Positions 20,728 to 26,524 of a stretch of 27,008 nt of DNA are shown here, in pieces. The notes below the pieces were generated by a model. It was not told where the DNA came from. It made no database searches and saw only the letters and a list, made by a program, of their open reading frames with translations. Source of the DNA: a virus; the IMG/VR virus record IMGVR_UViG_3300032087_001990, positions 1 to 27,008 of that record; one strand, 5' to 3'. The translations under genes and the position numbers were made by a program. Each line of letters begins with the position of its first letter. Positions within the stretch are counted from its first letter, which is position 1.

Positions 20728-21699
20728 TTATGCAAGTACATCTAATGCCCAACCATATTGAGATGTTCTAGAACCATTAGGGCCCCAATGTCTTTCACCA
20801 CCAATATCTACATGAAAGAACTCTCCACCATCTTTTGATGGAAAATAACACCCAACACCCTTAATACCTTTATCTTTTAATATTTGTAAGAATCTTGCTC
20901 TATCTTCTACACTAGAATTACTAAATCTAATATCGGTTGCAATACCTTCTGTATGAGTGCTTTTCTTAGCTCCACCAACTTTTTTATTATATTCTGGTGC
21001 TCTAAATGCACTTGTAATTGTTAAAGGACTACCCCATTCTTTAGATACTTCTTCTAATATAGTTTTTAATCTAGGGTCTATTCTTGAATCTGTGTGTGAA
21101 AGAAAGTTTAAATAGATACTATCTTTCGCTTCAGGGAATAAGTTACCATCAAACTTTACATTTGCATCTGGTGTATCTATACTACCTGTTTCTTGTGTTA
21201 CTGGTGATCTACCACCAAGGCCACCATCACCATATTCTAAACCTTCATTTGTATCAACATCAATTCCTAGATCACCATCAAATGTTCTACCATTAAGAAT
21301 ACCAGTTGCATGAGTTGAACTGATGTTTAATGTTGGTACATCATATGCAGTCTTTACTGCATCAACTGAATCTGCAACTTGTTCTAATAACAAAACACTT
21401 GAACCACTATTTGCAATTACATTTCCTGAAGCACTACCAGCCGCATTGGGCACCCATGAACCATGACCACCTGTAGCATCTGACAATCTATGAACACCAA
21501 TATTGTTCACAATAACATCTCCTGAACCAACTACTGCTGGATCACCACAACTTGTTTTATCACCAATTCTAACAGCTGATGCACTATTTACAAAAACATT
21601 AGGTGAACCTTGTGCATATGATGTTGAGTGAAATGGATTTGGTGTAGGTGATGCGTGTCCTACATGAGAGTCTGTTCCTTTTCTTACTATTCCTGGCAT
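20728..21699 (-). CDS. PAAR spike-tip protein fused to M15-type zinc peptidase
   Basis: A 323-residue two-domain protein. Residues 1-~100 are a PAAR-type domain (GIVRKGTDSHVGH, then AVRIGDKTSCGDPAVVGSGD, then VIVNNIGVHRLSDATGGHG, then NVIANSGSSVLL), as in the T4 gp5.4 tip that sharpens the central spike. Residues ~100-185 are a Gly/Asp-rich linker. Residues ~190-323 are an M15 D-Ala-D-Ala-type peptidase: ITSAFRAPEYN (228-238), STHTEGIATD (247-256) and FFHVD (294-298). H249, D256 and H296 fit the three zinc ligands of the family. The domain would cut peptidoglycan peptide stems during injection. It lies nine bases after the gp5-like gene, whose product it should cap. Domain calls are strong; function in entry rather than lysis is inferred from the fusion to PAAR. 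Confidence 0.9.
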   Translation of the reverse strand: MPGIVRKGTDSHVGHASPTPNPFHSTSYAQGSPNVFVNSASAVRIGDKTSCGDPAVVGSGDVIVNNIGVHRLSDATGGHGSWVPNAAGSASGNVIANSGSSVLLLEQVADSVDAVKTAYDVPTLNISSTHATGILNGRTFDGDLGIDVDTNEGLEYGDGGLGGRSPVTQETGSIDTPDANVKFDGNLFPEAKDSIYLNFLSHTDSRIDPRLKTILEEVSKEWGSPLTITSAFRAPEYNKKVGGAKKSTHTEGIATDIRFSNSSVEDRARFLQILKDKGIKGVGCYFPSKDGGEFFHVDIGGERHWGPNGSRTSQYGWALDVLA

Positions 21700-21708
21700 A
21701 TATTATTC

Positions 21709-22662
21709 CTAGTTTAAATTAATAACTTTAGAATCAACATCTACTTCTGTTGAAGCATCAATATCAAGTGTACCAGTAATATTTGTTTGTTGATCTGCAA
21801 GATATGTTTCAGTAACTTTCTTTGTTACAGTTTCTGTTTTCGTTCCTAGAATATTAATATCAACATCACCATCAACTTTAATATTCCAGTTTTGTTTGAT
21901 GTAAGTATTACAACTTCCATCTATTGTTAGATTGACTGTTCCTTTTACATAAGCATAATCAGAACCTGCAACGATACAATAATTATCACCAACAACTTTA
22001 GTAACTTTATTACCACCACCATCAATCTCGTAGAATGTTCCTGATGTGTGTTGTTCGTTTATTCTTTCGTTGTTTGGTGTGTCATCAAATTCTTTTATGT
22101 GACCTGATTCAGATTCAAAGACATGATTGTATGGATATTCAGGTTGGAATGGTGGAGCAGGTTGAGCCCAAGGTGTACCAGATGCAGTATCAACTTCTGT
22201 ATAGTTTGCTTGGTCTTTAAGTTTCTCTTGATACTTTACATGATTTGTATCACCTCTTGCAAGTCTATTGACATCACTTTCATTTAGTAAATCTGATTTA
22301 GGATATTTACCATTGGGATCGTTGAAACCTTTAGATGTATCTGCAACATTTCTAGGTATGCCTGGAATACTTCCCATGATAATACTTTCTTGCATAGTAT
22401 CTGCATCACGAAAAAATCCAACAACCCAAGTGCCTTCAACTAGTAGTGGTGGTGTTGTTCCTATACCACCAACAGCACTTGTCGATACTGGAAACATTGG
22501 TAAACTCCACGGCAAATCTTCCGTAGGCAATTTAGTTTTATCTTCTGTATGATAGCCGTATATTCTTACTTTTAAACGACCAAGTTTTTCAGGGTCTTTT
22601 CTATCTTCAACTACACCGATAAACCAATAGAATCCATCACGACCTAAAAAATGATTTTCCAT
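21709..22662 (-). CDS. 5: gp5-like baseplate hub/spike protein without lysozyme domain
   Basis: A 317-residue protein, much shorter than T4 gp5 (575). Residues 10-~100 are the gp5 OB-fold: FYWFIGVVEDRKDPEKLGRL then KVRIYGYH, matching T4 NWFVGVVEDRMDPLKLGRVR, plus LPTEDLPWSLPMFPVS and VEGTWVVGFFRD. KGFNDPNGKYPK (111-122) matches the T4 segment after the OB-fold. Residues ~178-213 (NHVFESESGHIKEFDDTPNN) begin the spike stem and ~214-317 are the triple beta-helix (GNKVTKVVGDNYCIVAGSDY, then VNLTIDGSCNTYIKQNWNIK, repeated short strands). The T4 lysozyme domain that sits between OB-fold and helix is absent; residues ~125-177 are only a Pro/Gln-rich linker. A hairpin and late box control its start region. 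Confidence 0.92.
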   Translation of the reverse strand: MENHFLGRDGFYWFIGVVEDRKDPEKLGRLKVRIYGYHTEDKTKLPTEDLPWSLPMFPVSTSAVGGIGTTPPLLVEGTWVVGFFRDADTMQESIIMGSIPGIPRNVADTSKGFNDPNGKYPKSDLLNESDVNRLARGDTNHVKYQEKLKDQANYTEVDTASGTPWAQPAPPFQPEYPYNHVFESESGHIKEFDDTPNNERINEQHTSGTFYEIDGGGNKVTKVVGDNYCIVAGSDYAYVKGTVNLTIDGSCNTYIKQNWNIKVDGDVDINILGTKTETVTKKVTETYLADQQTNITGTLDIDASTEVDVDSKVINLN

Positions 22663-22668
22663 AAAAAA

Positions 22669-22700
22669 ATTCCTCTTTACAAGTATTTATAAAGAGGAAT
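22669..22700 (-). terminator. T-tailed hairpin covering the gp5 ribosome site
   Basis: An 11-bp perfect inverted repeat (ATTCCTCTTTA / TAAAGAGGAAT) with a 10-base loop is followed on the minus strand by seven Ts (22669-22663, the first of them in the stem) and then the gp5 ATG. It fits an intrinsic terminator for transcripts coming from 22730-23164. The 3' arm also contains AGAGGA, the ribosome site of gp5, so any read-through RNA would hide it in the stem. Confidence 0.8.
22684..22691 (-). promoter_or_regulatory. T4-type late promoter box in the hairpin loop
   Basis: TATAAATA on the minus strand occupies most of the hairpin loop, ending 22 bases before the gp5 ATG. With the usual late-promoter geometry, RNA would start near 22678, within the 3' arm, so a late transcript lacks the 5' arm and leaves AGAGGA free. 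T4 genes such as e and soc use this arrangement; its use here is inferred. Confidence 0.75.
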
Positions 22701-22729
22701 CAAAGGGAGTTAAAATGAATAACTTTGTT

Positions 22730-22999
22730 TTAATAACAAACTAATTGATATTTTGGAATACCTTGTCCGTTATAAACTGGTGAACTCCAACACTTTGTGA
22801 ACTTACCTCGTTCAATAGCTGTGTCAGTATGAATGTGAGAATTCTTGAATCGTACTGTTGAATCAATTGTTCTCTTTAAAATGTTCTTACCAACATTGGT
22901 TAGAATTGAATCTGCGAATCTGTCAAAACCACTTTCAAATTCAAATGCGTTAGTATTGAAACTAACTGTTAATAATATAATTGTAAATAACTTTCTCAT
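22730..22999 (-). CDS. Small secreted protein, unknown function
   Basis: An 89-residue protein with a strong ribosome site (AAGGAGAATAAATT before ATG). Residues 1-18 (MRKLFTIILLTVSFNTNA) form a classical signal peptide with two basic residues, a hydrophobic core and a likely cleavage after NA. The mature ~70 residues (FEFESGFDRFADSILTNVGK, then NILKRTIDSTVRF) are charged and include two cysteines (KCWSS and LVCY) that could form a disulfide in the periplasm. It is the second gene after a perfect sigma70 promoter and is followed by the hairpin before gp5, so it should be expressed early or constitutively, unlike its structural neighbours. I do not recognise a family. Exclusion of other phages or envelope change are possibilities only. 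Confidence 0.7.
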   Translation of the reverse strand: MRKLFTIILLTVSFNTNAFEFESGFDRFADSILTNVGKNILKRTIDSTVRFKNSHIHTDTAIERGKFTKCWSSPVYNGQGIPKYQLVCY

Positions 23000-23002
23000 A
23001 AT

Positions 23003-23164
23003 TTATTCTCCTTGTTTATCTAAACAAAACTCATTCCAGATTAATTCTAAATCTGAATCTACATACCCACTATCTTTAAATGCTTTTGCAACTTTATCTT
23101 TCAACTCTTGTAAAGTTTCGCAATCAGGTAATACATAATCAATATATTCATCTGGTGTAATCAT
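23003..23164 (-). CDS. Small acidic protein, unknown function
   Basis: A 53-residue acidic protein (MITPDEYIDYVLPDCETLQE, then LKDKVAKAFKDSGYVDSDLE, then LIWNEFCLDKQGE). The frame extends upstream to 23239, but that part covers the sigma70 promoter and is an unlikely coding region; the ATG at 23164 follows AGAGAGAAAATTT and lies about 28 bases after the expected RNA start, so I chose it. ATG codons at 23191 is also possible. No membrane segment or known motif is visible; the middle is likely helical. It is the first gene of a two-gene unit with the secreted protein, three bases away. Function unknown. Confidence 0.65.
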   Translation of the reverse strand: MITPDEYIDYVLPDCETLQELKDKVAKAFKDSGYVDSDLELIWNEFCLDKQGE

Positions 23165-23198
23165 AAATTTTCTCTCTATTTTGTTAATCATTAAGTAT

Positions 23199-23227
23199 AT
23201 TATATGACAAATATGACTTGTTGTCAA
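23199..23227 (-). promoter_or_regulatory. Sigma70-type promoter
   Basis: On the minus strand TTGACA (23227-23222), a 17-base spacer and TATAAT (23204-23199) match the bacterial sigma70 consensus at all twelve positions with optimal spacing. RNA would begin near 23192 and cover the genes at 23164-23003 and 22999-22730. It is the only such promoter I found, and it implies use of unmodified host RNA polymerase. Confidence 0.85.
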
Positions 23228-23237
23228 TACAAAATGC

Positions 23238-23259
23238 AAAAAAAGATTTCTTTAAAATC
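23238..23259 (-). terminator. Weak intrinsic terminator at the end of the accessory operon
   Basis: On the minus strand GATTT, a five-base loop and AAATC are followed by seven Ts (23244-23238), seven bases after the stop of the 44-codon gene and just upstream of the sigma70 promoter. The stem is short and AT-rich, so efficiency is doubtful, but its place between two transcription units fits. Confidence 0.5.
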
Positions 23260-23265
23260 AAGGAC

Positions 23266-23400
23266 TTACAAGATAGACAATATATATGCAAGAATTATAT
23301 ACGGTAGTGCGAAGAAAAAGCCTATCATTAATAAGACATTGAATAGAAAATAGAAAGAAATTATTCCATCAATCTTTTTATATTTAAGTCTTTTTTTCAT
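23266..23400 (-). CDS. 44-residue membrane protein, unknown function
   Basis: A short frame of 44 codons from ATG at 23400 to TAA at 23266, starting five bases after the stop of the oxygenase gene. The product begins with a basic stretch (MKKRLKYKKIDG) followed by a hydrophobic span of about 30 residues (IISFYFLFNVLLMIGFFFAL, then PYIILAYILSIL) that would give one long or two short membrane segments, N-terminus inside by the positive-inside rule. There is no clear ribosome site, so translation may depend on the upstream gene. It fills what would otherwise be a 166-base gap ahead of the terminator. Reality is supported by placement and composition, not by a known family. Confidence 0.55.
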   Translation of the reverse strand: MKKRLKYKKIDGIISFYFLFNVLLMIGFFFALPYIILAYILSIL

Positions 23401-26177: not shown

Positions 26178-26423
26178 CTACCATCTTCTCTCTTTCACAT
26201 CTCTTGGACAGCCGCCTTTACCAGGCGTGTTCAATCGCATACCATTCTCACACTCGTAAGAACACATATAGATTTGTTCTTGTTCATTGATGGGTACATA
26301 ACTTGTAAACATACACCACATCTTGTCTTTACCCAACGCAGGTAAATCATATTCAGACCAGTCAATGTCACTAGTGACATCACTCGCAAATAATAATAGA
26401 ATTAATAAAAATAAGTTTCTCAT
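26178..26423 (-). CDS. Small secreted cysteine-rich protein, unknown function
   Basis: An 81-residue protein from ATG at 26423, which overlaps the upstream stop as ATGA; a GTG at 26441 in frame is an alternative start. Residues 1-~18 (MRNLFLLILLLFASDVTS) form a signal peptide. The mature part (DIDWSEYDLPALGKDKMWCM, then FTSYVPINEQEQIYMCSYEC, then ENGMRLNTPGKGGCPRDVKE) has four cysteines in WCM, MCS, EC and GCP contexts that could form two disulfides in the periplasm. Apart from the signal peptide, the sequence does not resemble the other secreted product at 22730-22999. I do not recognise the family. Confidence 0.7.
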   Translation of the reverse strand: MRNLFLLILLLFASDVTSDIDWSEYDLPALGKDKMWCMFTSYVPINEQEQIYMCSYECENGMRLNTPGKGGCPRDVKERRW

Positions 26424-26524
26424 AATAACGGATAGATACACACATAGAAAAAAACTACATGAAGTATCACAGATAATAAAATGGGTTTTAAAAGGGTTTT
26501 ATGCGTCTTTAAAAAATCAATCAT
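26420..26524 (-). CDS. 34-residue membrane peptide
   Basis: A 34-codon frame from ATG at 26524, inside the last codons of the upstream gene, to a TGA that overlaps the ATG of the secreted protein (ATGA). The product (MIDFLKTHKTLLKPILLSVI, then LHVVFFYVCIYPLL) has a short basic start and one hydrophobic span. It exactly fills the 93-base gap, and the two precise overlaps favour a real gene, although no ribosome site is evident and no family is known to me. Confidence 0.5.
   Translation of the reverse strand: MIDFLKTHKTLLKPILLSVILHVVFFYVCIYPLL

Follow-up and report, generated by a model that had tools for sequence, protein, structure and literature searches.

The elements known as PeSLs were reportedly described by Arbiol et al. 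in 2010 and by Comeau et al. in 2014. In the passages on them in two citing papers (PMC4503421, PMC4177764), the name stands for the promoter-early stem-loops of T4-type phages. The early promoters of T4 itself are very strong promoters built from UP, −35, TGn and −10 elements (PMC2988021), and the T4 genes e, soc, 49 and I-TevI provide a precedent for a late switch in translation (PMC3014915).

Here, we compare these systems with a region of a marine T4-like phage that lies between its accessory and its late genes. The window, by which we mean the whole stretch of DNA that was analyzed (27,008 nucleotides; IMG/VR record IMGVR_UViG_3300032087_001990, positions 1 to 27,008), is a fragment of 27 kb from the record of a T4-like phage. 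Its main genes are encoded on the minus strand, as are all the features of the unit and of the gp5 leader given below. We consider it likely that the region consists of a PeSL-like early unit followed by a composite hairpin switch at gp5. The basis of this reading is the sequence elements, the multiplicity of the promoter cassette, its fixed spacing, the predicted folds and the layout in relatives, from which we infer timing, termination and translational control. The unit elaborates on an arrangement known from phage T4, and is not a foreign insert.

The position of the unit agrees with the original prediction, which placed it between accessory and late genes. Upstream are genes for a PurN-type formyltransferase and two 2OG-Fe(II) oxygenases, together with small ORFs. 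Downstream, the late tail block begins with a gp5-type baseplate hub protein with an OB domain (21709..22662, assigned by protein family searches), followed by a PAAR/M15-peptidase protein. Close relatives of the window are IMG/VR contigs with identities of about 92–97%. In one relative of 79 kb (G012), the contig stops at the promoter cassette that is orthologous to the one in the window. It contains replication genes (DNA polymerase, clamp loader, recombination nuclease subunit and ribonucleotide reductase), and among phage records the nearest match of its DNA polymerase is the enzyme of Methylophilales phage Melnitz, with 68% identity. Melnitz (MZ577097, Kyanoviridae) is also the nearest cultured relative that we found for the window phage.

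The promoter of the unit is composed of a −35 element TTGACA (23222..23227) and a −10 element TATAAT (23199..23204), both matching the consensus, with a spacer of 17 bp between them. The perfect promoter that had been claimed is thus borne out, with 12 of 12 σ70 consensus positions at 23227–23199 of the minus strand, and it is the sole perfect match within the window. Block shuffling gives an expectation of about 0.05 such matches per strand in a 27-kb window, and a lone perfect match per 27 kb is by itself only mildly unlikely. In the 79-kb relative, 12 perfect promoters (perfect −35 and −10 elements, spacers of 16–18 bp) are found on the coding strand and none on the other, with 0.1 expected, and Melnitz has seven under a slightly wider spacer rule. 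Because of these numbers, the perfect σ70 promoters are to be regarded as the phage group's own early class. Like the T4 early promoters, the window promoter combines near-consensus σ70 elements with an UP-like tract and lies on the coding strand of an early region. It differs from them in having an exact TTGACA and an upstream box of its own, and in lacking the extended −10 (TGn), as no TG precedes its −10 element. In Melnitz, three tandem perfect σ70 promoters lie within 180 bp (72881–73060, minus strand), opposing the surrounding genes.

The predicted transcription start and a conserved leader, AATGATTAACAA, are located at 23180..23192 on the basis of the sequence and a comparison of the copies. 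An ATG at 23191–23189, that is, at the predicted +2, is in frame with the 53-aa ORF of the unit and could extend its protein to 62 aa. The leader motif ATGATTAACAA is seen at the predicted +2 of cassette promoters (window 23191–23165; L110–L113, with copies at 55762, 71606 and 74793 of G012; L120 1533), and in all copies of the phage group the frame of its ATG is that of the Shine-Dalgarno-led start (27 or 30 nt). In a wider set of 13 promoter-associated cases, the leader ATG is in frame in nine. The idea that it generally acts as an in-frame leaderless start at +2 was rejected, since L319 and L314 are clear exceptions despite a perfect −35. Early mRNAs could possibly carry a 5′-terminal AUG.

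Like the PeSLs, the window cassette combines a terminator-like element with a host-type early promoter of the σ70 class, is present in many copies per genome (seven in the 79-kb relative) and lies at the boundaries of swapped modules. The family differs from PeSLs in that most of its stems are degenerate but the 5′ box of the stem is kept, and in that the T-tract doubles as an UP element, with a fixed 41 bp to the −35. In the window, the upstream stem-loop is a weak T-tailed hairpin (23238..23259), a degenerate terminator stem of 5 bp with one G–C pair (GATTT/AAATC), which at −1.9 kcal/mol (z −0.06) is no better than shuffles. It is unbroken in 17 of the 27 distinct IMG/VR cores described below and broken in the other 10. 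The flanking T-tailed hairpin is accordingly not as had been described: it is weak in the window and broken in several homologous cassettes. Since the stem is too weak for a convincing terminator, the stem-loop half of the PeSL is degenerate here. Real terminators do occur at this position in paralogues of other contigs (G031, L160, L176) and at 31650 in Melnitz; such stems have −9 to −15 kcal/mol, an example being AAGTCCTTG-TTTTT-CAAGGACTT-T8. It is because of these true terminators that we group the cassette with the PeSLs.

The UP-element-like tract covers about −57 to −41 (23232..23248), the position known from T4-type early promoters, and the window copy has 9 of 14 consensus positions. 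Using the 14-position consensus taken from PMC2412878, the T-tracts of the family score a mean of 10.5/14 as UP elements at the canonical position, compared to a background of 5.9. Most simply, the compact cassette would be a composite of the PeSL type whose terminator stem has decayed, with the U-tract now acting as an UP element.

The overall layout of the cassette is TAAGTNNYTGATTTTAAA, about 6 nt, a T-tract, about 11 nt, and TTGACA. Each of the seven copies in the 79-kb relative stands before unrelated genes, and the last of them is the orthologue of that in the window. The window stretch is one of about eight near-identical early-promoter cassettes ahead of small accessory genes. A gapped search of IMG/VR, in which core lengths of 41–53 bp were permitted, yielded 64 cassette stretches with 27 distinct cores, every one of them exactly 47 bp long and with exactly 41 bp from the start of the box to the −35. 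In a looser scan of a wider sequence set, this spacing is mostly 41 bp, with 31, 51 or 52 bp in a few cases; many of these sequences had been retrieved by the exact box, so the conservation of the box is here partly due to selection. The box itself, TAAGTCCTTGATTTTAAA (23251..23268), is identical or nearly identical in about 10 copies of the group and in the 27 IMG/VR cores. Its TAA terminates the 44-aa ORF that lies upstream, and in several other copies the TAA likewise doubles as the stop codon of the preceding gene. When bacterial genomes were scanned for the cassette, the only match was a gammaproteobacterial MAG, in which the box is at contig ends, 35 bp ahead of a TTGACA without a good −10. 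At L204 (G026, about 21073–21192, minus strand), three tandem TAAGTNATTGATTTTAAA-type boxes with T-tracts lie ahead of a single promoter.

According to the ORF list, the unit holds only the two genes originally proposed, and both are also seen in relatives. The first gene (23003..23164) encodes an acidic 53-aa protein, and 3 nt separate it from the second (22730..22999), which encodes an 89-aa protein with a predicted signal peptide and two C-terminal cysteines. The signal-peptide-like N-terminus agrees with the proposed secretion of this product, and export is indeed predicted. Neither protein had a convincing match in searches of PHROGs, Pfam, NCBIfam and PADLOC or by tblastn against phage records. 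The AlphaFold2 model of the 89-aa protein has a pLDDT of 55, exceeding 70 only in a C-terminal two-strand hairpin between the cysteines. Among relatives, its gene has 1–3 synonymous changes and 1 amino-acid change, too few for a firm dN/dS. A further small, secreted and cysteine-rich ORF (about 81–87 aa, no family match) is found in the accessory region of the window at 26178–26441.

We now consider the other end of the unit, where the gp5 leader folds into a hairpin (22668..22701) of 15 pairs with −16.5 kcal/mol and z from −5.3 to about −7, followed by U7 and then the gp5 ATG. Folding suggests that it is a probable terminator of early transcripts and blocks the ribosome-binding site of gp5. 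The downstream hairpin of the original prediction is thus real and strong, but it is not a plain terminator, because a T4-type late promoter box TATAAATA (22684..22691) and, in the 3′ arm, the gp5 Shine-Dalgarno sequence GAGGA (22671..22675) lie inside it. The window has five TATAAATA boxes, each of them on the coding strand, and four lie shortly ahead of a start codon, which is the placement that late promoters should have. Among the four late-box genes of the window that were tested, only gp5 has a strong stem over its ribosome-binding site (z about −7, compared to about +1 to −1.8 for the other three). To represent the late RNA, its 5′ end was set 6 nt past the box by analogy with T4, which means that the 5′ arm is missing. 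The predicted probability that the gp5 Shine-Dalgarno is unpaired is then 0.00 in the read-through RNA and 0.38 in the RNA from the late promoter. According to this model, the late RNA leaves the site just 38% unpaired, which is a point against the switch. The corresponding predicted values are 0.001 and 0.88 for Melnitz, and 0.00 and 0.95 for L031.

The arrangement resembles that of T4 gene e in that the hairpin hides the ribosome-binding site in upstream-initiated RNA, and in that the late promoter TATAAATA falls within the 5′-arm sequence, leaving the late RNA free. It differs from the T4 case in its location at gp5, with which the tail genes of the late block begin, and in that the stem is followed by U7, so that it can also terminate. 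The late promoter overlaps the Shine-Dalgarno hairpin in both the window and Melnitz. In the Melnitz leader (76310–76370), the TATAAATA box is in the hairpin at −29, as in the window, the Shine-Dalgarno is in the 3′ arm, a U-run is present, and an early region with perfect σ70 promoters lies upstream. The 10-bp stem around the box is, however, unrelated to that of the window, and a tRNA-Leu takes the place of the 53-aa and 89-aa genes. The structure is thus kept despite sequence change at Melnitz gp5, as it is at L031 and L040, where the stems are likewise unrelated. In seven other gp5 relatives (L013, L014, L015, L016, L020, L037 and L057), the predicted occlusion of the Shine-Dalgarno is weak or absent. 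An Rfam search gave nothing above threshold.

Several other explanations have to be weighed against this picture. The original prediction regarded the unit as inserted, host-type and possibly moron-like. In a rival reading of this kind, a self-contained pair of foreign genes, equipped with a host promoter and terminators of its own, would have been acquired recently between accessory and late genes. The unit does have its own promoter, a strong downstream hairpin and ORFan genes, and the relative G001 has an additional 54-aa ORF directly after the cassette; in this contig the cassette is nearly identical to that of the window, and the 44-aa, 53-aa, 89-aa and gp5 genes are 93%, 81%, 99% and 97% identical, respectively. 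In G002 and G005, the cassette and the first gene differ after the same methyltransferase, and these comparisons together show module exchange at the cassette. The same cassette is, however, repeated throughout genomes of the phage group before unrelated genes, with the 12 promoters and seven copies of the 79-kb relative as the clearest count. Regarding the presence of the unit at the same place in relatives, all six closely related contigs that cover it carry the unit, but in gp5 relatives that are more distant, the genes ahead of gp5 are different ones. L048 and L064 have a perfect early promoter about 1 kb ahead of gp5, and Melnitz has tRNAs there and a perfect promoter 2.1 kb ahead. Since the distant relatives hold other genes, the place is a recurrent early/late boundary of variable content and not a clean insertion site. 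A simple moron or foreign insert was therefore rejected, given the multiplicity of the cassette, which largely refutes this reading, and a presence/absence pattern that is not clean; we regard a recent acquisition as very improbable. The remaining parts of the claim fared better, as sequence and comparison support both early expression by unmodified host σ70 polymerase and the isolation of the unit from the late genes. The suggested role of the 89-aa product as a periplasmic superinfection-exclusion or early envelope-modifying protein would fit its signal-peptide-like N-terminus, the two cysteines near its C-terminus, the predicted early expression and the few amino-acid changes among relatives. 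Against it, neither a homologue nor a usable fold was found, and there are about five other signal-peptide-like ORFs in the 79-kb relative (about 5–6 small ones in total), which means that export alone says little on function. This role is unlikely, and superinfection exclusion in particular is a guess.

Two further alternatives concern the two hairpins. The upstream box could be a protein-binding activator site, for example for IHF, that bends the DNA for the early promoter, the hairpin being incidental. This would account for a box that is kept while the opposite stem arm decays, and for box-to-−35 spacings of 31, 41 and 51–52 bp, which are close to whole helical turns. Moreover, TAAGTCCTTGATT matches exactly the IHF consensus, a string taken from published papers, and the first 13 nt of TAAGTCCTTGATTTTAAA fit this consensus, YAANNNNTTGATW. 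Against this, the consensus is loose and frequent in AT-rich DNA (12+16 matches in 79 kb), 3 of the 27 cores deviate from it at one base, the 51–52 bp cases are partly owed to an additional T-tract, and the consensus may not apply to the phage's host. The match and the near-helical-turn spacings are suggestive, and not proof of a protein site; we consider an activator site with an incidental hairpin possible but doubtful. An equally tentative combination would be that the TAAGTNNTTGATTTTAAA box is a former terminator arm turned into a positioned IHF/HU-like site at whole helical turns from early promoters, the cassette then being an insulator, activator site and strong promoter that spreads as a unit through marine T4-like phages. 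As for the gp5 hairpin, its 15-pair stem followed by U7 would also fit an intrinsic terminator and nothing more, with the overlap of TATAAATA and the Shine-Dalgarno being a coincidence of an AT-rich leader. The U-run does suggest termination as well. But the layout recurs with unrelated stems at Melnitz gp5, L031 and L040, and the three other late-box genes of the window have no such stem, which makes a terminator-only hairpin quite unlikely.

We thus return to the PeSL-like early unit with a composite gp5 hairpin switch, in which the early, host-polymerase-driven part appears well supported. The region would be the last early transcription unit ahead of the late genes. It would open with the PeSL-like cassette, consisting of the conserved box with its T-tract, the UP element and the consensus σ70 promoter, which unmodified host RNA polymerase would use right after infection to produce a single short mRNA that encodes both the 53-aa and the 89-aa protein. 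At its other end, the unit would close with the composite hairpin ahead of gp5. When transcription arrives from upstream, the 15-pair stem and U7 should terminate it, and in any read-through RNA the hairpin would hide the Shine-Dalgarno of gp5. At late times of infection, the late polymerase of the phage would initiate at TATAAATA inside the hairpin. The 5′ arm would then be untranscribed, no terminator would form, and gp5 would be translated. An attractive rationale, which we infer, would be that gp5 and the following peptidase gene are better kept off early.

This arrangement would provide a readable map of early and late expression for abundant, hardly cultivated marine T4-like phages, and the cassette could be used to locate early accessory genes, which are candidates for host takeover, in metagenomic contigs. 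With the gp5 leader, a switch of the T4 gene e type would act on a structural gene, and this in phages that are remote from T4. The constant spacing of 41 bp offers a directly testable hint at host architectural proteins or α-CTD contacts in early takeover.

Some further observations on late boxes can be mentioned. A second late-box gene of Melnitz, at 129242, has a hairpin of 8–9 bp ending in the Shine-Dalgarno (TCCCTTTTT/GAAAAGGGA), which may be a further switch of the gene e type. Late boxes in divergent orientation, TATAAATA...TATTTATA, are found between opposed genes at matching places in G012 (52492/52531, i.e. L112 12492–12531) and Melnitz (62721/62762), and also in G022/G043.
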